Shown: positions 1-10,000 of the stretch, one piece after another
How the letters are laid out: each line of letters starts with the position of its first letter
Numbering within the stretch: position 1 is the stretch's first letter
From: Kiritimatiellota bacterium
GTDB taxonomy: Bacteria > Verrucomicrobiota > Kiritimatiellia > JAAZAB01
NCBI GenBank assembly: GCA_008636095.1
Contig: VSJD01000083.1
Span: 1-10,000, forward strand
Direction: 5' to 3'
Length of the DNA: 10,000 nucleotides
The notes under the pieces: generated by a model
Seen by the model: the letters and a program-made list of their open reading frames with translations, nothing else
What the model was told of the DNA's origin: nothing
The model's database searches: none
Translations under genes and position numbers: made by a program

Positions 1-1
1 G

Positions 2-751
2 ATTGTTGCCTCATATAAAAATACCATTATGGCTGCCGTTCTGGTCATTGGCGTCCTGGCCCTTTCTGCCGGTGCCAAGGTGTTCTGGACCCGACCGGCG
101 GCCCGGGGCCATGCCGTGCTGGAAACCACCCGTGACTGGAAAACGGTCTATACCAGTTCCGTGCACATCAATGATGGCCAGGGTGACCTGACCATCATAG
201 GCTGTAACGAGCCCCTGGGCACGGTGATGACCAAACTCCGGCAGGCGTATGCCTCCTGCGAAATGCTGGAGACCTTCCGCCAGAATGAAACCCTGGGCTG
301 TGCGCGGATGCGCGAGGGCGGAACAATCGTAACCTTGCTGGCACTGGCGCCAAACCTGGCGTTGGCGCCAAACGCGCCGGAACAGACCGTGCTCTTTGTG
401 CTGACTCAGACACCTGGCGATGCTGACAAGTCGCGCGGACCGCCGTCCGCGCCGCGTCTGCGTGATCCATCGCCCTACCCCGGCAGTCGCGTGCAGACGT
501 ACTTGACCAGCGCGGAATCCCAAATGCAGTTGGAAATCTACGCTGTGGCGGCCATGCCGGAGGTCATCCAGGCCTATTACGAAAGCACCCTGCTCGGCCA
601 GGCGTGGATGCGCCTCGATCCCGCCGGCGCCTCCGCGAGCCTGGCAATATATCAGAAAGGCACCGCGCTTTGCGCCCTGCTGGTGCTCCCGGCCGGCGGC
701 GGCACCGAAAGTACGATTACAGTGTTGCACAAACGGCTAAAAATGGAATAA
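2..751 (+). CDS. Hypothetical membrane-anchored protein next to the tad cluster (5' end probably outside window)
   Basis: I do not recognise a family. The frame is open to the left edge, reading IVASYKNTI before the first ATG at 29. That ATG lies inside a hydrophobic stretch (about MAAVLVIGVLALSAGAKVF) and has no Shine-Dalgarno sequence, so the true start is probably upstream and the preceding Lys would orient one N-terminal membrane anchor. Counting from the ATG at 29 (240 residues), the rest is soluble and looks like two related halves, about 41-127 and 157-236. Each half begins with a Y-S/T strand, then an L-x-I strand, a P-x-V helix ending near a Tyr, and later a hydrophobic strand pair (GGTIVTLLALAPN and GTALCALLVLPA). 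A Pro/Arg-rich linker joins them. It ends 36 nt before cpaB on the same strand, so co-transcription and an accessory role in the pilus system are plausible but inferred. Confidence 0.6.
   Translation: MVASYKNTIMAAVLVIGVLALSAGAKVFWTRPAARGHAVLETTRDWKTVYTSSVHINDGQGDLTIIGCNEPLGTVMTKLRQAYASCEMLETFRQNETLGCARMREGGTIVTLLALAPNLALAPNAPEQTVLFVLTQTPGDADKSRGPPSAPRLRDPSPYPGSRVQTYLTSAESQMQLEIYAVAAMPEVIQAYYESTLLGQAWMRLDPAGASASLAIYQKGTALCALLVLPAGGGTESTITVLHKRLKME
338..373 (+). repeat. 18-bp in-frame tandem duplication
   Basis: Two adjacent 18-nt units (338-355 and 356-373) differ at two positions and encode LALAPN twice. The duplication sits in the first half of the hypothetical protein, just after a hydrophobic strand. 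It looks like a recent local slippage event that kept the frame. Confidence 0.75.
433..452. repeat. Perfect 8/4/8 GC-rich hairpin inside the hypothetical gene
   Basis: GCGCGGAC at 433-440 is the exact reverse complement of GTCCGCGC at 445-452, with loop CGCC. It encodes residues around SRGPPSAP, the linker between the two halves of the protein, where sequence constraint should be low. Confidence 0.6.
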
Positions 752-775
752 TGAATCCAATCACAGACTTTAAAC

Positions 776-781
776 AAGGAG
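776..781 (+). promoter_or_regulatory. Ribosome binding site of cpaB
   Basis: AAGGAG lies 6 nt before the ATG at 788. It is the only strong Shine-Dalgarno sequence in the plus-strand cluster and fixes the cpaB start. The starts of cpaF, tadB and tadC lack a comparable site, which suggests that cpaF and tadB rely on translational coupling. Confidence 0.8.
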
Positions 782-787
782 CATACC

Positions 788-1594
788 ATGAAGCAGAAAT
801 CCATTTTGATAATCGCCATCCTGGCCGGCCTGATCGCCTTCTGGCTCACCGGCCAGTACTTGCGACACGAACAGGAACGGATGCTGGGCGAGGCCAAGCG
901 CGTCTTCGTGATCGTGGCCAACCATGAACTGCCCGCCGGTTCAATTCTTAAAAATACCGATCTGGCCAAGGCGGCGGTATTCCAGAGCAGTGTGGGCGGT
1001 CGCGCCATTCTACCGGAATCCGTACGGGATATCGTGGGCAAAAAACTGCTGTTCAACATTAGTCGCGGCGACCCGATCCAGTGGTCGGATATTGACGTGC
1101 CGGCCCAGGGAACCGCGGGGTTGGCCCAGATGATTAATCTCACCATGCGGGCGGTTTCCATTCCCGTGGATGCGATTGCGTCGGTAAGTGGCATGGTCAA
1201 GCCCAACGACCATGTGGACATCCTGGGTACATTCGCATTCCCCTCGGCGACAGTGACCGGCAGCGTTGAAACCATCACGCTGACCGTACTCCAGGACGTG
1301 ACCGTCCTGGCCACCGGCCAGGCGCTGGCCAACCAGATTCCCGCGCCAGGGGTGCGCGCAGAGCGCGCACCGCGCAGTTACAGCGCGATCACGTTCGAAG
1401 TAACGCCCCGGGAAGCGGAACTGCTCGTGTTCGCCCAGACTGTCCGGGGCCGTTTGACCCTGGCTCTGCGGAACCCGGCTGATGTAACCTTTATCACCAA
1501 TCCCCCGTCCATTAATTTTGGCCATCTCCAGAAAAAATTGCCGGAACTGAATCTGATCCGCCAACGCGAAATCCGTCATAAGAAAGACATTTAA
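788..1594 (+). CDS. cpaB: Flp pilus assembly protein CpaB (RcpC family)
   Basis: CpaB/RcpC proteins are envelope components of the Tad pilus machine and are thought to act in the periplasm with the secretin. This 268-residue protein has the family's usual size. Residues 5-22 form an N-terminal membrane anchor. An SAF domain follows at about 40-103, with the typical start VIVANHELPAGSIL and the RGDPIQWSDID segment at 93-103. An RcpC-type domain spans about 118-230 and shows GMVKPNDHVDILG (135-147), TLTVLQDVTVLATG (164-177) and VTPREAELLVFAQ (205-217) ending in LALRNP. The short tail is basic. A strong ribosome site supports the start. The gene is followed after only 4 nt by the cpaF ATPase. 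No cpaC secretin or cpaE gene follows, unlike the common cpaABCEF order, so those parts must lie elsewhere. The identification is firm at family level. Confidence 0.93.
   Translation: MKQKSILIIAILAGLIAFWLTGQYLRHEQERMLGEAKRVFVIVANHELPAGSILKNTDLAKAAVFQSSVGGRAILPESVRDIVGKKLLFNISRGDPIQWSDIDVPAQGTAGLAQMINLTMRAVSIPVDAIASVSGMVKPNDHVDILGTFAFPSATVTGSVETITLTVLQDVTVLATGQALANQIPAPGVRAERAPRSYSAITFEVTPREAELLVFAQTVRGRLTLALRNPADVTFITNPPSINFGHLQKKLPELNLIRQREIRHKKDI
1351..1371. repeat. Perfect 9/3/9 hairpin inside cpaB
   Basis: GGTGCGCGC at 1351-1359 is the exact reverse complement of GCGCGCACC at 1363-1371, with loop AGA. It encodes about GVRAERAP (residues 188-195), a charged loop between two conserved strands of the RcpC domain. 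Confidence 0.65.
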
Positions 1595-1598
1595 CCAC

Positions 1599-3272
1599 AT
1601 GAGCGCTCTTCTCCAACTTGAAATCCACCGCTTGGGACACGGGGCGCAGACGCACGCGATCGAACACGGCATCTATCCGACGGGCGCGGAACAAGGTAAC
1701 AAAATCATTATTCCCGACAGCGATGTCGAGCCACGGCACGCCATTCTTATTTTCCGCCCAGACGGGTTTTACGTGGAGGACTTGAACAGCAAGGCCGGAA
1801 CGTTCTTGAATGAAGCTCCTGTCCGGGGCCGCGCCGCGTTCCGCGCCGGCGACATCATTCGGGTGGGCAACTGCCGCCTGATCCTTCGCCTTCTTGACCA
1901 AGCGGCGCCCCCGCCCGCGATCGCGGCATTCCCTCCATTGCCCGTTAACCTTACTCCATCGCCGCATGATGTTCTCGACCAGCAGTTGCACACCGAAAAA
2001 AGCCTGATCAAAAAACAGATTCACACCGAACTTTTGGAACGCCTGGACATCAAACGGCTGACGGCGGCCCACATCAAGAAAGCCGATCTACACGAACGCA
2101 CGCTGCAGGCCATCGAGCAAATTGTCCAGGAAGTGCGCGAACGTCTGCCCGCCTGGATTGATCCGGCGGCACTGACCAAAGAAATCTTCGATGAATCCGT
2201 CGGGCTCGGTCCGCTGGAAGACCTGCTGGCCGACCCGGACGTGACCGAAATCATGGTCAACCGGAACGATCAGGTCTACGTTGAAAAGCGCGGCAAACTG
2301 GAAATGAGCGACCGCGTGTTTATGGACGACAGTTCCGTACTGGCCATCATCGAGCGGATCGTGGCACCCATCGGCCGCCGAATTGATGAAAGCCAGCCCT
2401 ACGTTGACGCCCGCCTTAAGGATGGCTCACGGGTCAACGCCATCATCCCGCCGTTGGCGCTCAACGGACCGTGCCTGACGATCCGCAAGTTTTCCAAGAA
2501 CGTACTGACCATGCCGGAGCTGATTCAGCTGGGCACCCTGGCGCCCGAAATGGCCGATTTCTTGCGCCTGTGTGTGCAGTTGCGCAAAAACATCGTCGTC
2601 TCCGGCGGGACAGGATCGGGCAAAACCACTTTTCTAAACGTCATGGGTTCGTTTCTGCCGGAAACGGATCGCATCGTCACGATCGAGGACTCGGCCGAAC
2701 TGCGCCTGCCCCAGGCGCATGTGGTCCGGCTGGAGTCGCGGCCGCCTAATATGGAAGGACGCGGCGCCGTGACCATCCGCGACCTCCTGCGCAACGCCTT
2801 GCGGATGCGCCCGGACCGTATTGTGATCGGCGAGTGCCGGGGCGGGGAGTCGCTGGACATGTTACAGGCCATGAATACCGGGCACGATGGGTCCCTGACC
2901 ACCGCACATGCCAACTCGCCGCGCGATGTAATTGCCCGGCTGGAAACCATGACACTAATGTCGGGCGTCGAATTGCCCTCCCGCGCCATTCGCGAACAGA
3001 TTGCCTCGGCAATTCACATGGTCGTTCAGACCGCCCGAATGAGCGATGGCACGCGCAAGGTAACCCACATCACGGAAATTTCAGGTCTGGAGGGGGACCG
3101 CATCACCATGCAGGACCTGTTTACCTTCACCCAGACCGGGCTCGATCAAAACGGCAAGGTCATCGGCCGTTTCGAAGCCACCGGCTCCGTACCGACCTTT
3201 ATTGAGGAAATCAAAATCCGTGGGCTTTCGTTAGCCATGAGCATCTTTGATACGCGCAAATGGAAACATTGA
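1599..3272 (+). CDS. cpaF: FHA domain-CpaF/TadA fusion, Tad pilus assembly ATPase
   Basis: This is the cytoplasmic hexameric ATPase of the secretion ATPase (VirB11/PulE) superfamily that powers Flp pilin assembly. At 557 residues it is longer than typical CpaF because of an added N-terminal FHA-like domain (about 20-98) and a Pro/Ala linker (about 101-122). The CpaF N-domain runs from about 130 and includes GLGPLEDLL (202-210) and DPDVTEIMVN. The ATPase core has Walker A GGTGSGKT (336-343, Lys342), an acidic box IEDSAEL (Glu363), Walker B RPDRIVIGE (Glu412), and a His box NTGHDGSLTTAHANS (426-440, His429 and His437). All catalytic motifs are intact. In contrast the FHA domain lacks its usual phosphothreonine-contact residues: the GR pair reads GA (29-30), the SRxH motif reads EPRH (44-47) and the NGT motif reads AGT (66-68). 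It starts 4 nt after cpaB and overlaps tadB by 13 nt. No clear ribosome site is present, so translational coupling is likely. Confidence 0.95.
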   Translation: MSALLQLEIHRLGHGAQTHAIEHGIYPTGAEQGNKIIIPDSDVEPRHAILIFRPDGFYVEDLNSKAGTFLNEAPVRGRAAFRAGDIIRVGNCRLILRLLDQAAPPPAIAAFPPLPVNLTPSPHDVLDQQLHTEKSLIKKQIHTELLERLDIKRLTAAHIKKADLHERTLQAIEQIVQEVRERLPAWIDPAALTKEIFDESVGLGPLEDLLADPDVTEIMVNRNDQVYVEKRGKLEMSDRVFMDDSSVLAIIERIVAPIGRRIDESQPYVDARLKDGSRVNAIIPPLALNGPCLTIRKFSKNVLTMPELIQLGTLAPEMADFLRLCVQLRKNIVVSGGTGSGKTTFLNVMGSFLPETDRIVTIEDSAELRLPQAHVVRLESRPPNMEGRGAVTIRDLLRNALRMRPDRIVIGECRGGESLDMLQAMNTGHDGSLTTAHANSPRDVIARLETMTLMSGVELPSRAIREQIASAIHMVVQTARMSDGTRKVTHITEISGLEGDRITMQDLFTFTQTGLDQNGKVIGRFEATGSVPTFIEEIKIRGLSLAMSIFDTRKWKH

Positions 3273-4159
3273 CCAATACCGCCGGGCTTTGGCTGATTCC
3301 GACCCTGTACCTGGTCTGCTTCAGCGGGTTGACCTATGCCTTTATGCTGGCCCTGCGCGCCGGTGCAGACAGCTACGAAAGGGTGTATAGCGAACAGACG
3401 GCGCGCCAGTTTGCCGACATATTTTTCTTCATCCCCCCGCGGCGCATCCGGGACCTTGCCTGGACCGCTGCCATTGCCTTCTTCCTGATTTTATTTTTTT
3501 TCGCCGGCGATTTTAAAACTGTCGCCGGCTTCCTGCGTGGGCTATTCATCGGTGTTTTGGCCGGCCTGGTGGCACTTGCCCTTCCGCGATGGTACCTGGG
3601 AATCCTTAAACAGCGGCGCCTGCGGCTTTTCAACGAGCAACTTGTAGATGCCCTGATGACCATGAGCAGCGCCTTGCGCGCCGGTTCCAGCATTACGCAG
3701 ACCTTCGAACATATCGTCCGGCAAAACCTGCCCCCGATTTCCCAGGAGTTTGATCTTTTCCTCCAGCAGACCCGTATCGGCGTTAAATTTGAAGACGCGC
3801 TGGTCAATCTGGAAAAGCGGGTGGCCAGCGAGGATTTGACGCTCATGATCCGCTCGATCGAGATTGCCCGGCAGACCGGCGGGAACCTGACGGAAGTGTT
3901 CGATAAAATTGCCGGTGTGATTCGCGAGCGCATCCGTATCCAGGGGCGCATCCAAACGCTGACTTCACAGGGGCGCATGCAGGGAATCGTTGTAGGTCTC
4001 ATGCCGATCGCGCTCATCTTTGCCCTGTTCCTGCTGGATCCCGTGATGATGACCGCGTTTTTTACGTCAAGCGCCGGAATTCTGACCGGATGCCTGGCCC
4101 TATGCCTGGAACTTATCGGCGCCTTGCTAATCCGCAAAATCATGCGGATTGATATCTGA
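3260..4159 (+). CDS. tadB: Tad pilus inner-membrane platform protein TadB (T2SSF domain)
   Basis: TadB pairs with TadC to form the inner-membrane platform on which the CpaF ATPase acts. This 299-residue protein has the family layout: hydrophobic segments at about 9-32, 66-82 and 91-109, a cytoplasmic T2SSF helical domain at about 124-230, and membrane segments at about 241-259 and 270-291. Within the T2SSF domain, EQLVDALMTMSSALRAGSS (126-144) and IARQTGGNLTEVFDKIA (202-218) are the typical TadB signatures, followed by IRIQGRIQTLTSQGRMQG. The ATG at 3260 overlaps the end of cpaF by 13 nt; an in-frame TTG at 3269 is a possible alternative. The gene is close to cpaF but separated from its partner tadC by a repeat-bearing gap, which is unusual because the two are commonly adjacent. 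Confidence 0.93.
   Translation: METLTNTAGLWLIPTLYLVCFSGLTYAFMLALRAGADSYERVYSEQTARQFADIFFFIPPRRIRDLAWTAAIAFFLILFFFAGDFKTVAGFLRGLFIGVLAGLVALALPRWYLGILKQRRLRLFNEQLVDALMTMSSALRAGSSITQTFEHIVRQNLPPISQEFDLFLQQTRIGVKFEDALVNLEKRVASEDLTLMIRSIEIARQTGGNLTEVFDKIAGVIRERIRIQGRIQTLTSQGRMQGIVVGLMPIALIFALFLLDPVMMTAFFTSSAGILTGCLALCLELIGALLIRKIMRIDI
3503..3529. repeat. 8-bp GC-rich inverted repeat inside tadB
   Basis: GCCGGCGA at 3503-3510 is the exact reverse complement of TCGCCGGC at 3522-3529, with an 11-nt AT-rich loop. It encodes the short connection AGDFKTVAG (82-90) between two membrane segments, so it again falls in an unconstrained loop. Confidence 0.45.
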
Positions 4160-4222
4160 AATCTGCTATAAGGCAAACAGGCGGTAGGCAGTTAGGAAGA
4201 TAACGATGATAGTTGCAAAAAC

Positions 4223-4293
4223 GTTCTTCGTCCTTGGTTCCTCGTTAATCCGAAACGAAGAACGAAGAACCAAGAACCAAGAACAATGAACTG
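4223..4293. repeat. Heptad-periodic inverted repeat (AACGAAG/AACCAAG type), copy 1, between tadB and tadC
   Basis: From 4254 the plus strand reads as 7-nt words: AACGAAG, AACGAAG, AACCAAG, AACCAAG, AACAATG, AACTG. The left arm 4223-4246, read on the minus strand, is built from the same words (AACGAGG, AACCAAG, GACGAAG, AAC). Paired in the best register the arms match at 21 of 24 positions, with the mismatches at variable word positions. The loop is 7 or 14 nt depending on register. It occupies much of the 167-nt gap. No T tract follows, so a plain terminator is unlikely and read-through into tadC is expected. The rest of the gap (4160-4222 and 4294-4326) shows nothing I can name. Confidence 0.85.
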
Positions 4294-4326
4294 TTTAGTC
4301 CGCATTCCCTAACAAACCGAGTTTAC

Positions 4327-5253
4327 ATGGACCTTATCATCATAATCAGCCTGGGCGTGTTGTGGGCGGTGTTTGCCGCCGGCATCACTTGGCACCTGGC
4401 GCAGACGGTCTTTGCCATTACATACGTAACGCTGGCCGATGGGCGTCGCCAAGAGCGGCGTCTTCCGATGCTCTTCCGGGTATTACTACCACTGACCCCT
4501 TCCCTGACGCCGTTTTTCCGTAAGCCGCGCTTTCGAAAAGCTCGCGAGCAGGCGCTGATTAGCCTCACTTCCGGAGGATTTGATGATGTCATCTCACCGG
4601 ATGAATTCATGGCACTGCGGGTGCTGACGCCGATCGTTGTGGTTCCCGTGCTGAGCATTCCGGTCATCAGCGCGTTCGCCTGGATTCAGGGCCCCGCGGA
4701 TAGTGGTTTGGGCGTACGGCTCGTGGCCTTGTTCGGCGCCCTGTTGCTGACGATGATCATGTACCCGTCCTGGTGGATCAAACAGGCTGTCGCTCTCCGG
4801 CATCGGCTGATTCTGAAAGCCCTGCCGTTTGTTATTGATTTACTTACGCTTTCGGTAGAGGCCGGCCTCGACTTCATGACCGCGATCAAAAACATTGTGG
4901 AACGGAGGCCGCCCGATCCGATCGCCGAGGAGTTATCGCGGGTCTTGTTTGAAATTCAGCTCGGCAAGACGCGGCACGAGGCACTGTCCCGTCTTGCAGA
5001 ACGCGTGCGTCAGCCGGACATCCAGTCCCTGGTCATGGCCCTGGTCCAGGCCGACGAACTGGGCGTCAGCATCGGCGCCACGTTACGGATCCAGTCCGAC
5101 CAAATCCGCGCCAAGCGCTTCATGCGCGCCGAGAAACTGGCCAACGAGGCCCCGGTCAAAATGCTGTTCCCGCTGGTGGTCTGCATTTTTCCGGCCGTCT
5201 TTTTGATCATGCTGGGACCCATTATTTTGCAGATGCTGAAGTACGGATTTTAG
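4327..5253 (+). CDS. tadC: Tad pilus inner-membrane platform protein TadC (T2SSF domain)
   Basis: TadC is the second inner-membrane platform protein of the Tad machine and works with TadB. The 308-residue product has an N-terminal membrane segment (about 3-30), two more at about 98-119 and 129-148, a cytoplasmic T2SSF domain at about 165-275, and a C-terminal segment at about 279-303. Diagnostic stretches are LPFVIDLLTLSVEAGLDF (166-183), VMALVQADELGVSIGATL (236-253), RAEKLANEAPVKMLFPLV (267-284) and the end FLIMLGPIILQML. The ATG at 4327 has no good Shine-Dalgarno sequence. The gene is flanked on both sides by copies of the same heptad-periodic hairpin family, and no further tad gene follows on the plus strand, so the cluster ends here. 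tadD, pilins, secretin and prepilin peptidase are not in the window. Confidence 0.94.
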   Translation: MDLIIIISLGVLWAVFAAGITWHLAQTVFAITYVTLADGRRQERRLPMLFRVLLPLTPSLTPFFRKPRFRKAREQALISLTSGGFDDVISPDEFMALRVLTPIVVVPVLSIPVISAFAWIQGPADSGLGVRLVALFGALLLTMIMYPSWWIKQAVALRHRLILKALPFVIDLLTLSVEAGLDFMTAIKNIVERRPPDPIAEELSRVLFEIQLGKTRHEALSRLAERVRQPDIQSLVMALVQADELGVSIGATLRIQSDQIRAKRFMRAEKLANEAPVKMLFPLVVCIFPAVFLIMLGPIILQMLKYGF

Positions 5254-5266
5254 GCAGCAGCAAAAC

Positions 5267-5319
5267 GTTCTTAGTTCTTGGTTGATTCAAAACGAAGAAC
5301 AAAGAACCATGATTTTTTT
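5267..5319 (+). terminator. Heptad-periodic hairpin copy 2 with T tract, likely tadC terminator
   Basis: The left arm 5267-5283 and right arm 5291-5307 pair at 15 of 17 positions around the 7-nt loop GATTCAA. Both mismatches fall exactly one per heptad (stem positions 7 and 14). The right arm reads AACGAAG, AACAAAG, AACCATG, the same word family as at 4254-4293. Seven T residues at 5313-5319 follow five bases after the stem, so it can act as an intrinsic terminator for the pilus cluster. It lies between convergent genes; in the minus direction only a short TTTT follows, so termination of the permease gene is less certain. Confidence 0.7.
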
Positions 5320-5332
5320 GGAACGATTCCCA

Positions 5333-6331
5333 TCACAGCCCCAGCAGGCGGACGAGGTAATACAGCACCGGCACGGTCAGGATACTCCCGAGGGTCGAAT
5401 AAAAAATGGCGCGCGCCGCCAGGGGTGTATCGCCGCCAAAGCGTTCGGTGACGATACTGCAACTGATGGCCACGGGCATGGCCGCAATCAGGTAGGTGGT
5501 CATACGCGTCACTTCCGGAATACGCAATCCAAGCAAGATAGCGGCCGTAAATATTGCGATGGTTATTGCGGGCGCAACCAACAGCCGCAACACGATCACC
5601 CCGACAAAATCGCGCGTCGGGTAATGATCAGCCAGATTCAAACTGCCTAACTGCGACCCTGTGATCACGAGTGAAAGTGGAATCGTAAGGCTCCCCAGCA
5701 TGGCCAATGCCTGGACTACGGACGCGGACGCAAGCACACCGACCGAGGCTCCGGCCACGGCCACGGTTTCCAGCGTACGCGTGAACGGCAACACCAGCGC
5801 AATGACAATCCCAGCCACTGTGGCGACCAATCCGTGATTCATGGCCAATTCCTTGAATGCCACCTTGCGCGGCATTGTCCCTCGCAAGGTCCAGACCCCG
5901 ATCGTCCACAGCATCAACTGGGCGCCCACATTGCAGAGCAAAACATCGCGCACGCCGGCATCACCAAAGAGCTTTTCCACAATCGGCAGGGGAAAGAACA
6001 CCCAATTCGGCATTGCCACCAGGAATACGGCGGTGGCCAGGGCGCCCTTGTGACGAAAGAGCGGCATACCCAACTGCCCCACGACTTTGGCAATGACAAT
6101 CACGGCGGCGCCGAGGATCGGCACGAACCAGCTTTCGCGCAGAACCTGGGGATTAACGGTGCGCAGCATTTGCGTGAAGACCATGGCGGGAAAAATCATG
6201 TCCACCAGCAAGCGACTGAGGACCCGGCCGGCGTTGTCGGTGATAAGGGCGCGCTTGCGCGCCACCCACCCAAGCGCCATGACCAGGAACATGGAGGCAA
6301 TCTTTAATAAAACTATCAGAAAATCAGACAT
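5333..6331 (-). CDS. AEC-family (auxin efflux carrier-like) permease
   Basis: The 332-residue product is strongly hydrophobic with about ten predicted membrane segments, as in the bacterial AEC family (Mem_trans), which includes malate and other organic-acid permeases. Family-like features are the N-terminal segment MFLVMALGWVARKR with a following Arg/Lys pair, the helix around VDMIFPAMVFTQM (43-55), AMPNWVFFPLPIVEKLFGD (106-124) with its helix-breaking prolines, a central hydrophilic region near 151-165, and the C-terminal pair AAMPVAISCSIVTERFGGD (283-301). The two halves look structurally repeated, as is usual for the family. The substrate cannot be told from sequence. The start is supported by AGGA 8 nt upstream. 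It lies 161 nt downstream of truA on the same strand and ends about 13 nt from the T tract of the tadC terminator. Confidence 0.88.
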   Translation of the reverse strand: MSDFLIVLLKIASMFLVMALGWVARKRALITDNAGRVLSRLLVDMIFPAMVFTQMLRTVNPQVLRESWFVPILGAAVIVIAKVVGQLGMPLFRHKGALATAVFLVAMPNWVFFPLPIVEKLFGDAGVRDVLLCNVGAQLMLWTIGVWTLRGTMPRKVAFKELAMNHGLVATVAGIVIALVLPFTRTLETVAVAGASVGVLASASVVQALAMLGSLTIPLSLVITGSQLGSLNLADHYPTRDFVGVIVLRLLVAPAITIAIFTAAILLGLRIPEVTRMTTYLIAAMPVAISCSIVTERFGGDTPLAARAIFYSTLGSILTVPVLYYLVRLLGL

Positions 6332-6339
6332 TGGAATAA

Positions 6340-6343
6340 TCCT
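6340..6343 (-). promoter_or_regulatory. Ribosome binding site of the AEC permease
   Basis: On the minus strand AGGA lies 8 nt before the ATG at 6331. It abuts the AATGGAA heptad at 6346, so the repeat arm lies directly next to the translation start region of this gene. Confidence 0.65.
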
Positions 6344-6345
6344 AA

Positions 6346-6500
6346 AATGGAAAATGGCTGATGGTTAATGATCAATGAAGACTGACGATCAAAATGGCTC
6401 GAATTATTTACTCGGCCGCAACATATCTGCTAAACACAGCTTGACGTTTACCCGACTTCGGCGCGTTTCATCAACCATTCCCCATGAACCATTTACCATT
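6346..6500. repeat. Heptad-periodic inverted arms (AATGGTT type) between truA and the AEC gene
   Basis: Plus strand from 6346 reads AATGGAA, AATGGCT, GATGGTT, AATGATC, AATGAAG (to 6380). Minus strand from 6500 down to 6466 reads AATGGTA, AATGGTT, CATGGGG, AATGGTT, GATGAAA. The arms therefore face each other, with about 85 nt of unassigned sequence between them (6381-6465). The truA stop codon TAA (6495-6493) is formed inside the first two heptads of the right arm. I found no convincing promoter in the 85-nt centre. Confidence 0.8.
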
Positions 6501-7323
6501 CTCGATCCGCGCGCACCACACGCGGATCGGGATACCACACCCGCCATAGAAACAAGCCTTGTGGTGGTGCCGTCGGCACACGTGCCGTGCGTATCCTCGA
6601 ATGCAGGATACGACGCGCCTCCTCCGGCGGCACGGCGCCCGTACCCACCCTGATTAGAAATCCGGCCAGACTGCGCACCATCTTGTAGAGGAATCCGTCG
6701 CTTTGTGCCCGGATGACGATCTCAGGCCCTTTCCGGCTGACGGTGAGTTTCATTACATGCCGCCGTGTGCTTTCCACCTCCCGATTGGGGTTGGCGGTGA
6801 AAGCGGCAAAATCGTGCCGCCCGACCAGCATCGCGGCGGCCACCCGCATGGCGCGCACATCGAGCGGCGTGCGCACATGGGTCCGATATAACCGCAAAAA
6901 CGGGGAGATAACATTGCCGTTCCAGATTAGATAACGATATTCCTTGCGTACGGCACTGCGTCGGGCGTGAAATGCCGCGCCAACCGGCTGAGCACGCAGG
7001 ATGCGGATAGCCGCCGGTAAGAGCGCATTCAAGGCCCGCGCCAAGCTGGCCGCCGGCAGGATAAACGGCAAATCGCAGTGCGCCACCTGGCCGGCGGCAT
7101 GTACGCCCTGGTCGGTGCGTCCACTGCCGTGGAGTTTCACGGGCGCACCCGCCATACGGCGCAAGGCCGCCTCAAGTTCGCTCTGGATCGTGCGCTGGTT
7201 GGGCTGAACCTGCCAGCCCGCATAAGCGGCCCCATCGTAGGCAATCAAAAGGCTATAGCGTTGCGGGCGAGATGTCGCCTGCGGGCGAATTGTCGCCTGC
7301 GGACGAATTTTTCCGTGTTTCAT
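6493..7323 (-). CDS. truA: tRNA pseudouridine(38-40) synthase TruA
   Basis: TruA converts uridines 38-40 of the tRNA anticodon arm to pseudouridine in the cytoplasm. The 276-residue protein shows the N-terminal motif RYSLLIAYDGAAYAGWQVQ (22-40), the catalytic motif GSGRTDQGVHAAGQ (66-79) with Asp71 as nucleophile, FHARRSAVRKEYRYLIW, HDFAAFTANPN and the C-terminal signature SDGFLYKMVRSLAGFLIRVG. Family members usually begin a few residues before the RY motif. Here about 20 extra residues precede it, made of IRPQAT, IRPQAT and SRPQ encoded by an 18-bp tandem repeat. No later in-frame ATG exists before the core, so the ATG at 7323 is the probable start. It lies 1 nt after the ruvX stop (TAGGATG), so translational coupling is likely. 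The C-terminus ends within a heptad repeat arm. Confidence 0.95.
   Translation of the reverse strand: MKHGKIRPQATIRPQATSRPQRYSLLIAYDGAAYAGWQVQPNQRTIQSELEAALRRMAGAPVKLHGSGRTDQGVHAAGQVAHCDLPFILPAASLARALNALLPAAIRILRAQPVGAAFHARRSAVRKEYRYLIWNGNVISPFLRLYRTHVRTPLDVRAMRVAAAMLVGRHDFAAFTANPNREVESTRRHVMKLTVSRKGPEIVIRAQSDGFLYKMVRSLAGFLIRVGTGAVPPEEARRILHSRIRTARVPTAPPQGLFLWRVWYPDPRVVRADREW
7263..7309. repeat. 18-bp tandem repeat encoding the TruA N-terminal tail
   Basis: Units 7274-7291 and 7292-7309 are 18 nt each, differ at one position, and are preceded by a partial unit from 7263. On the minus strand they encode (IRPQAT)2-SRPQ. The segments 7263-7282 and 7281-7300 each fold as an 8/4/8 hairpin (GCGGGCGA with TCGCCTGC, one G-T pair). 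The tail is therefore a tandem of small palindromes kept in frame. Confidence 0.8.
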
Positions 7324-7386
7324 CCTACAGCCTACAGTCTTCTGCCGAAGGCGGATCCGCCTGTGGGCGGAAAACGCCTACAGTCT
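7324..7386. repeat. Palindrome flanked by 11-bp direct repeats, plus CTGTAGG doublet, at the ruvX 3' end
   Basis: The 11-mer GCCTACAGTCT occurs at 7330-7340 and again at 7376-7386. Between them lies GGCGGATCCGCC (7350-7361), a perfect 12-bp palindrome, followed by GGCGG at 7366-7370 that can pair with the same CCGCC. On the minus strand the heptad CTGTAGG is perfectly duplicated (7337-7331 and 7330-7324) and runs directly into the truA ATG; its second copy supplies the ruvX stop TAG. The segment is translated as the last residues of RuvX (FRPQADPPSAEDCRL). The layout resembles an inserted small palindromic element with a duplicated flank. Confidence 0.75.
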
Positions 7387-7813
7387 CGGCGTCCCTATGG
7401 GACGCCAGTGCATCGAGATAACTCTGCAAAATGACCTGCGCGGCCAATTTATCTACCAGACCTTTGCGCCTCGAGCGGCTGACATCGAAGTCAATCAGCA
7501 TGCGTTCCACCTGCCGACTGCTCATGCGCTCGTCCCAGACTTCCACCGGCCGGCCGGCCTGTCGGCGGAGCTCCAGGACAAACCGTTCCACCGCTTCAAC
7601 CGCCGACCCCCGCGAGCCATCCATATTGAGCGGCAGGCCCACCACAATTCCCGCCACCTGTTTTTCCTGGCACAGGCGCAGGACATCCCTGATCACCTGC
7701 TTGAAACTTTGCACCGGCAGGATATCCAGCGGCAGGGCCATCATGCCCAGCTCGTCGCTGATGGCCAGGCCCACGCGCCGCTCACCATAATCCACGCCTA
7801 AAGTGCGAGACAT
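7325..7813 (-). CDS. ruvX: RuvX/YqgF-type RNase H-fold nuclease
   Basis: YqgF/RuvX proteins are RNase H-fold nucleases, linked to 16S rRNA 5'-end processing in E. coli and annotated as putative Holliday junction resolvases. The ATG at 7813 gives MSRTLGVDYGERRVGLAISD, the canonical N-terminus with the metal-binding Asp8; the longer open frame reaching 7915 would overlap manC and is rejected. Other motifs are GIVVGLPLNMDGSRG (55-69), VWDERMSSRQ (92-101) and VDKLAAQVILQSYLD (120-134) with Asp121. The family normally ends soon after that helix, at about 135-145 residues. Here 162 residues result from a tail of about 25, encoded by a hairpin (7388-7406) and a repeat element. It starts 16 nt after manC with only a weak GGA as ribosome site, and its stop is 1 nt before truA. 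Confidence 0.92.
   Translation of the reverse strand: MSRTLGVDYGERRVGLAISDELGMMALPLDILPVQSFKQVIRDVLRLCQEKQVAGIVVGLPLNMDGSRGSAVEAVERFVLELRRQAGRPVEVWDERMSSRQVERMLIDFDVSRSRRKGLVDKLAAQVILQSYLDALASHRDAETVGVFRPQADPPSAEDCRL
7388..7406. repeat. Perfect 8/3/8 hairpin in the RuvX tail
   Basis: GGCGTCCC (7388-7395) and GGGACGCC (7399-7406) are exact reverse complements around loop TAT. It lies just after the conserved final helix of RuvX and next to the 11-bp direct repeat, encoding about ASHRDAE. It may be part of the same inserted segment. It is not followed by a T tract and lies inside the operon, so it is not a typical terminator. Confidence 0.7.
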
Positions 7814-7829
7814 AGTATTGTGTCCAAAT

Positions 7830-8915
7830 TTACAGCCATGGATGCGCGTCACGCCGGCGCCGGAGCTTTTCGACCATGCGCTTGACCTCCTGGGAACGAT
7901 CCTTGCGGCAGACAAGGGTCACGGCGCCGGCCTTGACCACTACCATGTTATCCACACCGACCAGCGCCACCAAGCCATTGTCGGCGACCACGATGTTGCC
8001 GGAAGATTCCATCAGCTCGCCATTACCCACGACCACATTCCCGTGCCCGTCCTTGGGGAAATGTTGCTCCAACGCCGACCATGAGCCCACGTCATCCCAC
8101 GGAAACGCGCCCTCGACCATTACGATATTATCCGCACGCTCCATGACGGCATAATCCACCGATATTTTTTCCAGGCCGGCATAAGCGCGCTTCAACGCGG
8201 CATAAAATCCCACCCGGCCTGCCAGCGGCGTCAGCGTATCCAGCAAGCGCGCCAGGGGTGGGCAATGCCGCCGAAGCGCCCGTTCCCAGGCGGACAGCGA
8301 CCAGATAAACATACCCGAATTCCAATAGAATCGTCCGGTCTTGACATAACGTGCCGCTATACGCTCGTTCGGTTTCTCAACAAATCGCCTGACACGGTAA
8401 AAGACAGTCTTTGTCGGCCCGGCCAGGCGCCCGCCGGTTTCAATGTAGCCGAATCCTGTGCTCGGAAATGCCGGCTTGAGCCCGATGGTCACCAATACAT
8501 CCGCGGCGGCGGCGCGGGCAAAAGACTCTTTCAGCGTACGCCGGAAAACGGCCGCATTGCCGACGACATGATCAGCCGTCAGCACGCAAAACACGGCATT
8601 CGGGTTACGGGCCTTGATCAGGGCCGCGGCGAGGGTAATGGCCGCGGCCGTATCACGGCCGCAAGGCTCGCCAATCACATTTACTTTCGGCAAGCCGGGC
8701 AACAGATGGCACACGGCAGCATGGAGATCAGCGCTGGTAATCACCAGGATGCGCTTCTCCGGAATGATTGCCCGAATGCGATAAACCGCATCAGTCAGCA
8801 GGGCTCGCCGGCCGACCAGGGCCAGGAGCTGTTTTGGGCGGCGGCTCGTGCTCAGCGGCCAGAACCGCTCCCCCCGGCCCCCGGCCAGGATGACTGCGTA
8901 AGTATTGGCATTCAT
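7830..8915 (-). CDS. manC: Mannose-1-phosphate guanylyltransferase (GDP-mannose synthesis)
   Basis: The enzyme joins mannose-1-phosphate and GTP to give GDP-mannose for cell-surface polysaccharide and glycan synthesis. The 361-residue protein contains only the nucleotidyltransferase unit and lacks the C-terminal phosphomannose isomerase domain of bifunctional ManC/AlgA enzymes. It begins with AVILAGGRGERFWPLS (7-22) and Lys28 in RRPKQLL, the nucleotide-binding signature. Further motifs are EPCGRDTAAAI (83-93), LTADH (112-116), PSTGFGYIE (151-159), RFVEKPN (177-183), YWNSGMFIW (197-205), DYAVMER (254-260) and FPWDDVGSW (271-279), followed by a short beta-helix-like tail. AGGAG 9 nt upstream supports the ATG at 8915. 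It leads a tight manC-ruvX-truA unit rather than a polysaccharide cluster, so a housekeeping supply role is inferred. Confidence 0.94.
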   Translation of the reverse strand: MNANTYAVILAGGRGERFWPLSTSRRPKQLLALVGRRALLTDAVYRIRAIIPEKRILVITSADLHAAVCHLLPGLPKVNVIGEPCGRDTAAAITLAAALIKARNPNAVFCVLTADHVVGNAAVFRRTLKESFARAAAADVLVTIGLKPAFPSTGFGYIETGGRLAGPTKTVFYRVRRFVEKPNERIAARYVKTGRFYWNSGMFIWSLSAWERALRRHCPPLARLLDTLTPLAGRVGFYAALKRAYAGLEKISVDYAVMERADNIVMVEGAFPWDDVGSWSALEQHFPKDGHGNVVVGNGELMESSGNIVVADNGLVALVGVDNMVVVKAGAVTLVCRKDRSQEVKRMVEKLRRRRDAHPWL

Positions 8916-8924
8916 TGTGAATCG

Positions 8925-8929
8925 CTCCT
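8925..8929 (-). promoter_or_regulatory. Ribosome binding site of manC
   Basis: On the minus strand AGGAG lies 9 nt before the ATG at 8915. It is the strongest ribosome site on this strand and marks manC as the likely head of the manC-ruvX-truA unit. Confidence 0.75.
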
Positions 8930-8966
8930 GTTGTGCAAGCGTTTACAGTTGCAGGCTTCATGGCTT

Positions 8967-9060
8967 GAAATTAGAAATTGGGCAAAAAAACTCACGATTC
9001 TGTACAATATCCAATTTCTAATGTCAGCCAGCTCGTTGCTTATTCCAATTTCAACATTCC
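8967..9060. repeat. Heptad-periodic inverted repeat (GAAATTG type) between coaX and manC
   Basis: Plus strand 8967-8980 reads GAAATTA, GAAATTG. Minus strand 9025-9005 reads GACATTA, GAAATTG, GATATTG, and further upstream 9060-9040 reads GGAATGT, TGAAATT, GGAATAA. The core arms TTAGAAATTGG (8971-8981) and CCAATTTCTAA (9011-9021) are perfect reverse complements, 29 nt apart; extended to 15 nt they match at 14. It occupies most of the 166-nt gap after coaX. There is no T tract, so termination is not clear. No convincing promoter for manC was found in the remaining bases. Confidence 0.8.
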
Positions 9061-9081
9061 GCGAACACTTGCCATAAATGA

Positions 9082-9882
9082 TTAGGCCATATTCTCACGA
9101 CTTGTGTTGAGTTCATAAATCCGGGAAATGCCAAACAGCGTCAGGTCCGGGTCAATCCGCACCCTCAGATCACATCCGGCCAGCGCCCAGGCCGAATAAC
9201 CGCCAGTAGCGCAGAGGCGGACCGTTCGGTCCTTCAGCGTGTGCTGTAAGCGTGTAAAAATTTCGCGCACCATGCCGAGGTATCCCAGGCGCGCCCCAAT
9301 GGCCATGGCCTGTCGCGTGTTCTTGCCAATGACCGGCATGGCGCGTAAATTCCGCGGAATACCGTGATACCGGTCCAGCCGCAGGTGCGGCAGCAGCGCC
9401 GTTTTTTCGGCCAGGTAATCGGTCATTAGCGGCAGGCCGGGTACAATGATGCCGCCCATATAGGCATTTTTGGCCACCACATCAAAGGTCAGGGCCGTTC
9501 CGAAATCGGCTACAATCACGGGCGAGCCGTAGCGGTACGCCGCACCGCAGGCATTAGCTAACCGGTCCGCGCCGATACTGGCAGGGTTCGGATACTCGAT
9601 ACGCAGTCCCAACTTCATGCGGTGATGCACCATGCGGGGCAATCGGCCGCTGACAGCCTGCAGTTCCCGAAGCCAGAGGTGGTTGCGTTGTGGCACGACC
9701 GAACACAGCATGGCTCCCGTGATCAGACGGTTCCGCGTCAACCGGGTCAGCACGGCGGTTACATCCTTGCGGCAGGTAGTCCGGGTTGGCAAGTGGCTGA
9801 TGCCGCTGATCCGTCCGGCACGCGCCAGTCCCACGGTTGTACTGGTGTTGCCCATATCCACGACTATCACAAATCCAGACAT
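9082..9882 (-). CDS. coaX: Type III pantothenate kinase CoaX
   Basis: CoaX phosphorylates pantothenate, the first step of coenzyme A synthesis, and belongs to the ASKHA fold. From the ATG at 9882 the product has 266 residues, normal for the family. It shows the phosphate-1 motif VVDMGNTSTTVGL (7-19) with Asp9, the GADR motif IGADRLANACGA (103-114), the catalytic region VIVADFGTALTFDVV (122-136) with Asp126, and GGIIVPGLPLM followed by TALLP (143-165). ATGGYSAWA near 226-234 supplies the adenosine-side glycine motif. A longer open frame reaching 9936 would overlap the upstream gene and lacks family similarity, so the internal ATG is preferred; GGA lies 7 nt before it. The start is 1 nt after the upstream stop, implying coupling. 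The probable birA upstream is a common coaX neighbour. Confidence 0.94.
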   Translation of the reverse strand: MSGFVIVVDMGNTSTTVGLARAGRISGISHLPTRTTCRKDVTAVLTRLTRNRLITGAMLCSVVPQRNHLWLRELQAVSGRLPRMVHHRMKLGLRIEYPNPASIGADRLANACGAAYRYGSPVIVADFGTALTFDVVAKNAYMGGIIVPGLPLMTDYLAEKTALLPHLRLDRYHGIPRNLRAMPVIGKNTRQAMAIGARLGYLGMVREIFTRLQHTLKDRTVRLCATGGYSAWALAGCDLRVRIDPDLTLFGISRIYELNTSRENMA

Positions 9883-9883
9883 A

Positions 9884-10000
9884 TTATTTTCCAAATTGGC
9901 GTAACGACCATTCCTGCAGGATGCGGCTTTTATCATCCTGCCGCGCCATGGTGTAACAGATATCCAGTTCGTTCAACACACGCGCCAATACCCGGTCGCA
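9884..10000 (-). CDS. birA: C-terminal end of probable biotin--protein ligase BirA (partial)
   Basis: Reading the minus strand from the window edge gives 38 residues ending in TAA, with VLARVLNELDICYTM and ILQEWSLRQFGK as key stretches. This resembles the end of the BirA catalytic domain, where a helix of the type LxxLLxELxxxY is followed by an EW pair. In most BirA proteins a further C-terminal SH3-like domain of about 50 residues follows, starting with a GR/GK-V strand; here the frame stops at QFGK, so that domain appears to be missing. The stop is 1 nt before the coaX start. The birA-coaX pairing is common in bacteria and supports the call, but the visible part is short. Confidence 0.5.
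   Translation of the reverse strand, partial: CDRVLARVLNELDICYTMARQDDKSRILQEWSLRQFGK

Follow-up and report, generated by a model that had tools for sequence, protein, structure and literature searches.

Several Families of Short, Dispersed Elements with Facing Heptamer Arms Probably Occupy the Intergenic Gaps of a Kiritimatiellota Bacterium

Genes and Heptamer Arrays of the Window

The stretch of DNA considered here, called the window throughout, comprises 10,000 nucleotides (nt) of a Kiritimatiellota bacterium (GenBank assembly GCA_008636095.1, contig VSJD01000083.1, positions 1 to 10,000), and the subject of this report is the arrays of degenerate 7-nt words, often laid out as two facing arms, that lie in the gaps between its genes. 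The source genome, G000, is a 3.81-Mb draft of 357 contigs in which the window is contig C86. Pfam supports two T2SSF genes, a Mem_trans transporter, a TruA-type pseudouridine synthase, RuvX, an NTP transferase with a ManC domain and a type III pantothenate kinase; CpaF, TadB and TadC, where used for window genes, are working labels that we assume and not Pfam names.

When each gap was compared with 1000 dinucleotide shuffles of itself, an excess of matches at lag 7 was present in all four window gaps longer than 50 nt, namely 4160-4326 (z 5.8), 5254-5332 (z 2.6, p 0.016), 6332-6492 (z 2.5, p 0.007) and 8916-9081 (z 3.1, p 0.003), and no lag-7 signal was found in the 36-nt gap 752-787. A few other lags reached p < 0.05 in the same gaps, among them lag 3 in 5254-5332 (z 2.9) and lag 17 in 6332-6492 (z 3.1). 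The facing arms of the four gaps gave RNA folding z values of -5.9, -4.2, -4.1 and -3.5, respectively, and the ruvX/truA junction a value of just -1.9.

The first hairpin (4223..4284), to which, as to the other hairpins, palindromes and facing arms of the window, no strand is assigned, belongs to the GAACNAA family and lies between two T2SSF genes. It consists of a left arm of GTTCTTN units (4223-4243), an apex (4244-4256) and a right arm (4257-4284), has a 7-nt apex in common with other hairpins, and is also found in the related genomes G002 and G004 with the number of units changed, the gap at 4160 having one 7-nt unit fewer in G002. A second GAACNAA hairpin (5267..5307; left arm 5267-5280, apex 5281-5293, right arm 5294-5307) stands between convergent genes; G002 has it, G004 is without it, its flanking genes abutting there, and G003 carries a different heptamer word at the site, but its downstream gene differs too. 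The third feature is an inserted element of the ATGGTTA family (6332..6531), with a left arm at about 6344-6377, a right arm at 6469-6500 and a G+C hairpin at its border (6503-6531). Facing arms of the GAAATTR type follow at 8965..9060 (8965-8982 versus 9011-9023 plus 9045-9060); no copy of them was found in the parts of G000 and G004 that were fetched, and they are thus only a candidate member of a dispersed family.

At the ruvX/truA junction, the CTGTAGG doublet (7324-7337) reported by the first-pass annotation was confirmed and a third copy was added, so that three CCTACAG units, read from the sequence on the minus strand, are present at 7324-7330, 7331-7337 and 7377-7383. They lie within the C-terminal extension of the called RuvX protein, in which the Pfam RuvX domain spans residues 3-134 of 162, and a 31-nt G+C palindrome of the CCGAAGGCGGATCCGCC type (7341..7371) separates the second unit from the third. 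The N-terminal part of the called truA gene holds an 18-nt tandem repeat, TGCGGGCGAATTGTCGCC, in 2.7 copies (7262-7309).

Period Seven across the Genome

The wider occurrence of the period was followed in 84 contigs of G000 (957 kb), not selected by content, in which a simple open reading frame (ORF) caller delimited 457 gaps of at least 40 nt. Perfect runs of at least 8 numbered 29 at lag 7, 34 at lag 14 and 25 at lag 21, compared with 0-11 at the remaining lags from 3 to 24, about one being expected (1.3 in shuffles for lag 7). By summed match fraction, however, lag 3 (z 15.2) equalled lag 7 (z 15.3), and it is therefore the counts of runs and arrays that carry the claim of a period of seven; the lag-7 autocorrelation proposed by the first-pass annotation as a check stood out from other lags by these counts and was level with lag 3 by match fraction. 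Degenerate arrays were found 76 times at lag 7 and 59 times at lag 14, versus 2-8 times at lags 4-6, 8-13 and 15. Tandem units of 7 nt thus exceed other unit lengths between genes, as they do in heptameric repeats of the cyanobacterial kind, the short tandemly repeated repetitive (STRR) sequences. The 76 arrays occupy 64 of the 457 gaps, so that the earlier statement that every gap over 50 nt carries such repeats stands for the window and does not extend, at the array threshold, to the genome. With relaxed settings, 211 of 503 arrays fell inside called ORFs, many of which are perhaps spurious.

The similar lengths of the three larger window gaps, to which attention had been drawn, seem coincidental: in G004 the counterpart of the 167-nt gap measures 119 nt and the 5254 gap is practically missing, and G002 is practically without the 6332 gap.

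Word Families

The words were sorted in 1.9 Mb of DNA, coding DNA included, made up of 100 contigs of G000 and 40 stretches of its sister G004. This sample yielded 421 arrays at lag 7, versus 6-41 at five control lags, and they fell into 105 clusters, 82 of them singletons and 18 with six or more arrays; since two pairs among these 18 have nearly the same consensus, there are roughly 15 families. A genome with one or a few words, as in STRR-like repeats, is therefore not what is found here, and neither is the proposed set of unrelated, site-specific words, because the families recur in G000 and its sisters. Each word has fixed columns and a few columns that allow two or three letters. Substitutions within arrays cluster in columns (sum of squares 11902 versus 10550, standard deviation 82), and the same alternative letter recurs in 2213 of 4273 substitution pairs (0.52 versus about 0.33 at random). 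Adenine-specific mutagenesis, like that of diversity-generating retroelements, was considered from the column tables and set aside; one column of AACRYCS holds C or G only.

These patterns bear on slippage, an idea quoted to account for the over-representation of heptamers (PMC4692102). Slippage with a favoured step of 7 nt would create independent microsatellites, and template switching in hairpins would then create the facing arms. It would account for a period of seven in all families and for orthologous arms that differ by one 7-nt unit, and it does act in places: the longest array seen, a nearly perfect 93-nt TCTGTCG array (L156 2815-2907), looks like a true slippage expansion of one family, and units of CRGACGM, the largest family, are more alike within a chain (0.44) than in the whole pool (0.30). 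In six families, on the other hand, neighbouring units resemble each other no more closely than they do once the units of their array have been shuffled. Strict patterns found no exact string of five units common to different sites; diverged copies do exist.

Facing Arms and Polarity

Among 152 neighbouring array pairs at most 250 nt apart, 63 were of the same family and inverted, 15 of the same family and direct, and 74 neither, whereas the counts at 1-8 kb were 76, 99 and 816. The binomial p for 63 of 78 is 4e-8 if pairs are taken as independent, though some may be mutual copies. Together with the folds in the window, this excess bears out the view that a facing layout with period seven is shared across different words; the suggested clustering of words and pairing of arms thus agreed with the first-pass annotation on the layout and contradicted it on the words, which recur as families.

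Polarity was single in the six families that had at least five same-family pairs each and met in one orientation only (12/12, 6/6, 7/7, 6/6, 5/5 and 5/5, i.e., 41/41). Inverted arms of fixed polarity, as expected of a miniature inverted-repeat transposable element (MITE), were accordingly found in these six families; polarity was not fixed in CRGACGM, and three small families were mixed. The strand of an array also agreed with its position in the gap in eight families (Fisher p < 0.03), a test from which ORF-internal arrays, poorly classified arrays and gaps over 600 nt had been dropped.

The families differ in anatomy. A search for GAACNAA-type hairpins gave 21 candidates with an apex of 7 nt in 13, 6 nt in six, 4 nt in one and 9 nt in one. 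Many of the 13 have the form GTT-TYVRATT-AAC; most of the other eight look like the GTTCRGK family or chance, and two (G4C16 12448 and G4C43 88639) look like GAACNAA members with other apex lengths. AACRYCS arms often start near AAGCAAAC and end near GTCGAATG, and a frequent border of ATGGTTA arms is GATCCGCGCG...CGCGCGGATC or a CCGCC...GGCGG palindrome. Arms of the GTTCRGK/GAACMCY type bracket a longer core (L127 5881-6195 and L202 at about 2176-2349, with parts in L198 and L167). This core recurs between sites, and GTAGTTAC often lies directly outside the arms. The tetranucleotide GTAG was seen by eye only beside some GTTCRGK and CAGAATT arms.

In the variable column of GAACNAA stems, 7 of 37 positions form Watson-Crick pairs (11.6 expected) and 8 form G-T pairs (5.1 expected). 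As pairing here falls short of expectation, neither arm is a mirror copy of the other, which disfavours the copying of one arm from the other and, with it, the template switching on which the slippage account depends. Recurring words, fixed polarity and common ends speak against that account as well, and slippage as the sole cause of the arrays is judged improbable.

Gaps with arrays fold better than gaps without (mean z -2.06 in 47 gaps versus -0.75 in a subsample of 82), arrays keep close to ORF edges (43% within 10 nt versus 24% under random placement), and in co-directional gaps of G000 and G004, 28 of 29 CRGACGM arrays have the sense orientation, a strand bias not accounted for by a plain mobile hairpin. 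All of this would suit arrays that are selected regulatory sequences, such as RNA hairpins, terminators or protein-binding sites, evolving in place. Such an origin is nevertheless very unlikely, given the absence of compensatory pairing in the variable column and given that arrays are present or absent, and their words swapped, at orthologous gaps. Nor is there a match in the window to Rfam at the gathering threshold that would identify a known RNA family, and a scan for intrinsic terminators calls none of the hairpins, with 3 terminator-like sites versus 5.9 in shuffles. CRGACGM arrays are often seen shortly past a stop codon and followed by CCGGAGAAGA.

Dispersed Copies and Insertions

Copies were found for the first hairpin: window 4209-4284 has one at L040, with 92% identity over 76 nt and unrelated flanks, and another with 90% identity on contig C70 of G004, in which the true orthologue lies on contig C27. 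The clearest insertion is the ATGGTTA-family element. Window 6332-6531 is absent from G002, whose TadC is 97% identical, whose TruA ends in ...VWYV and whose truA stop codon overlaps the start of the next gene, the transporter. In all six relatives, the alignment of the TruA orthologue stops at residue 264-268 of 276, so that the simplest view is that the insert is derived. Three copies elsewhere in the genome (L167, L027 and L037) share the right edge of the window element at base 6531, and G004 in turn is without the L027 copy, its orthologous gap measuring 3 nt versus 193 nt. Common ends, unrelated flanks and non-coding dispersal, the further marks of a MITE, are thus found in the L040 copy and in the edge shared by the three copies.

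G004 lacks the 31-nt palindrome (7341-7371) at the orthologous and otherwise collinear site, and related copies occur at L191, L160, L037 and other places. This G+C palindrome, built around GGCGGATCCGCC, is a dispersed repeat in its own right and stands inside or beside heptamer arrays. Another dispersed repeat, of about 200-270 nt and without a period of seven, has a palindromic part like GCGCTATACTCGTGTATGCGCAAGCGCGG; it was met at L155, L129, L140, L149, L157 and L189, and its depth in the intergenic comparison was about 10-14.

Comparison of orthologous gaps also brings up a possible different process. Pairing with G004 succeeded for 104 of 831 gaps, and arrays were present in 17 in G000, in 11 in G004 and in 6 in both. 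At three sites (L028_6891, L128_7560 and L128_2662) the flanks match between G000 and G004 and the word is different, and arms of two families are joined in the same order at two sites in each of two cases (L137/L139 and L040/L143). These observations, and the fact that neither an enzyme nor a firm target duplication was found, would be expected if homologous or microhomology recombination between gaps spread the arrays by ectopic conversion, with no element or enzyme of their own. Against this stands the element at 6332-6531, which entered an array-free site where the G002 genes overlap, and fixed polarity and the common outer edge suggest units; ectopic conversion is accordingly held to be an unlikely origin.

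Origin of the Arrays

Taken together, the gaps are probably occupied by members of several families of MITE-like elements, which are short, dispersed, non-coding inverted repeats whose arms are made of heptamers, and such families account for the facts better than slippage in place does. Directly supported are the occurrence of the families at many sites, the excess of facing pairs, the polarity in six families, presence and absence between relatives, one polarised insertion, and a difference of one 7-nt unit, lost or gained, between orthologues. In the model that we propose, each family would have two facing arms of one polarity, in each of which a degenerate 7-nt word peculiar to the family is repeated about 3-6 times, and between them a short conserved apex, as in the GAACNAA family, or a longer stretch, the ATGGTTA family often having a G+C hairpin as its outer border. 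The elements would move as whole units by means of an enzyme supplied in trans, and slippage or unequal exchange would merely adjust the number of units afterwards. Of the former suggestion that one mechanism worked on unrelated seeds, the mobile hairpin family, one of the processes named, is favoured, slippage alone is disfavoured, and the seeds turn out to be recurring families.

Several observations weigh against this interpretation. In CRGACGM polarity is not fixed, its same-family pairs being four direct (++), two +- and one --, and AACRYCS, GGAAYTT and ATCSAAM, with three pairs each, are of mixed polarity. A cruder test gave a weak excess, an inverted partner being found at 31 of 110 flanks versus a direct one at 21 of 110. 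Alignments between sites (at least 45 nt and 82% identity) numbered 48, versus 28, 17 and 27 after units had been shuffled inside arrays, and at 88% there were 8 versus 5, 4 and 3; as matches survive the shuffling, shared words explain half or so of them, and some aligned pairs have related flanks (scores 17-28). The insert at 6332-6531 has just AT on both sides, with no clear target duplication, and none was seen at the 7341-7371 palindrome. Length differences between G000 and G004 are likewise seen in 38 paired gaps that carry no array (median 57 nt), from which it follows that fast turnover is general and not special to arrays. A strict pattern for the presumed outer end, GCAANAACNTTCTTNGTTC, was found in 0 of 6 genomes, although it misses the window's own copy and is thus no real test. 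The local slippage described above counts here too, and the element interpretation does not explain why the period is seven in every family.

No mobilising enzyme was identified in a search that was aimed at Y1_Tnp only. Y1_Tnp occurs in 45 of 58 genomes, with 4 in G000, 2 each in G001, G003 and G004, and none in G002, which is rich in arrays but 70% complete; no link between Y1 transposase genes and the arrays was visible, judged without a statistic. A larger autonomous element was set aside, because the inverted excess is missing at 1-8 kb, and both results belong among the points against mobile elements.

Occurrence in Other Genomes

Five of the genomes belong to the genus, G000 being one of them and counted in the genome totals that follow. 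GAACNAA was found in 9 of 58 genomes, the single match in G009 being equalled by one control match, and ACCATYR in 15 of 58 and in 31 of 387 across the phylum, where the reversed control equals or exceeds the real count in some genomes (e.g., 79 versus 0 real in G188). GMCRGAC was found in 8 of 58; the genus members had 95, 31, 45, 35 and 90 matches, and three further genomes had 1-3. As these counts differ, the words have different ranges.

From a comparison of CpaF-like proteins, 80 loci with 46-64% identity to the window protein were kept, the two closest coming from an uncultured bacterium and from a Verrucomicrobia metagenome-assembled genome (MAG). They held 22 arrays at lag 7, versus 0-16 at five other lags, in 13 of the 80 loci, some of low complexity. 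Dispersal was then followed in eight genomes behind these loci, chosen as closest relatives or because the loci showed arrays. AATCGYM is dispersed in three of the eight, with 61 matches in a Verrucomicrobia MAG, 47 in a Chloroflexi MAG and 18 in an Anaerolineales MAG, and the other five are without it; AAGTGWT is dispersed in one. In the Verrucomicrobia MAG, the listed places of AATCGYM include five pairs on opposite strands, spaced 116-136 nt, and in each pair the minus-strand word precedes the plus-strand one. The word is common to the genomes of L090, L116 and L124, one a Verrucomicrobia and two Chloroflexi-labelled records, and its presence in distant phyla may reflect horizontal spread or convergence. 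It is a hint toward a superfamily spanning several phyla, with inverted arms in genome-specific sets of heptamers and a machinery that would read or write DNA in 7-nt steps and tolerate many words, these being exchangeable while period, polarity and layout persist; we regard this extension as speculative and rather doubtful.

In plasmids (22 records) and phages (17 records), sequences similar to 4205-4295 covered at most 43% of the query among the matches listed. The right arm of this hairpin resembles stretches of 31-39 nt in Acinetobacter plasmids and phages (H1-H8, H11-H12 and H14-H16), at several places per plasmid, which may be iterons or chance.

Relation to Known Repeats

Cyanobacterial STRR sequences are short tandem heptamers in many copies, and as far as we are aware their words differ from those of the G000 families. 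Repetitive extragenic palindromic (REP) sequences and their paired form, the REPINs, which are associated with REP-associated tyrosine transposases (RAYTs), are short dispersed units in inverted pairs, and the REP unit is palindromic and stands beside a GTAG or CGTC tag. The arms in G000, in contrast, are heptamer arrays and not palindromic units, and no link to Y1 transposase genes was seen.

Facing arms had been thought undescribed by the first-pass annotation. Precedents are, however, contained in the portions of two reports drawn on here: 70 and 75 convergent GGGAATC pairs in two Xanthomonas genomes (PMC4692102), and the tRNA-Leu intron of Nostoc, in which degenerate heptanucleotide repeats pair into the P6b hairpin (PMC3488679). 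The Xanthomonas GGGAATC and Nostoc GGGGA(C/T)T repeats resemble those in G000 in being degenerate, dispersed, intergenic heptamers with conserved columns, many facing pairs and strong variation in length and sequence between close relatives; as described in that part of the report, they are one G-rich word type per genome, discussed as a G-quadruplex former, whereas G000 has roughly 15 families, fixed polarity and conserved borders or apex (PMC4692102). The P6b stem likewise has degenerate heptamers on both sides of a hairpin and a varying copy number, but is, in the portion concerned, a single intron locus, the elements in G000 being dispersed (PMC3488679). TAACTGA repeats of Beggiatoaceae, some Cyanobacteria and Bacteroidetes are similar as intergenic heptamer arrays scattered over distant phyla; in the excerpt consulted they are of one exact word, with related heptamers seldom repeated and, in the main genome, 169 direct sets and one indirect (PMC4679880). 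TAACTGA is not among the family consensuses of G000 and G004. The BrickBuilt MITE of Porphyromonas gingivalis, intergenic and with tandem repeats and small inverted-repeat ends, differs, in what that source gives, by its 23-nt unit in a direct array, with 19 copies in one strain (PMC4596501).

Facing heptamer arms are thus already known, and what appears new is the set of many words, the fixed polarity and the swaps of words at orthologous gaps. No precedent for this combination was found in the literature searched, which mostly excluded subscription journals and is weak evidence of absence.

Significance

Heptamer repeats have so far come to notice here and there among bacteria, for the most part as a single word in each case, and there is no agreement on their origin or function. 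In this genus, one genome holds many families, relatives stand at various distances, and sites are known both with and without an element, so that the question 'why seven?' becomes testable by comparison of strains. If the arms belong to mobile units, published heptamer repeats may have to be reinterpreted as element ends instead of the outcome of slippage in place.

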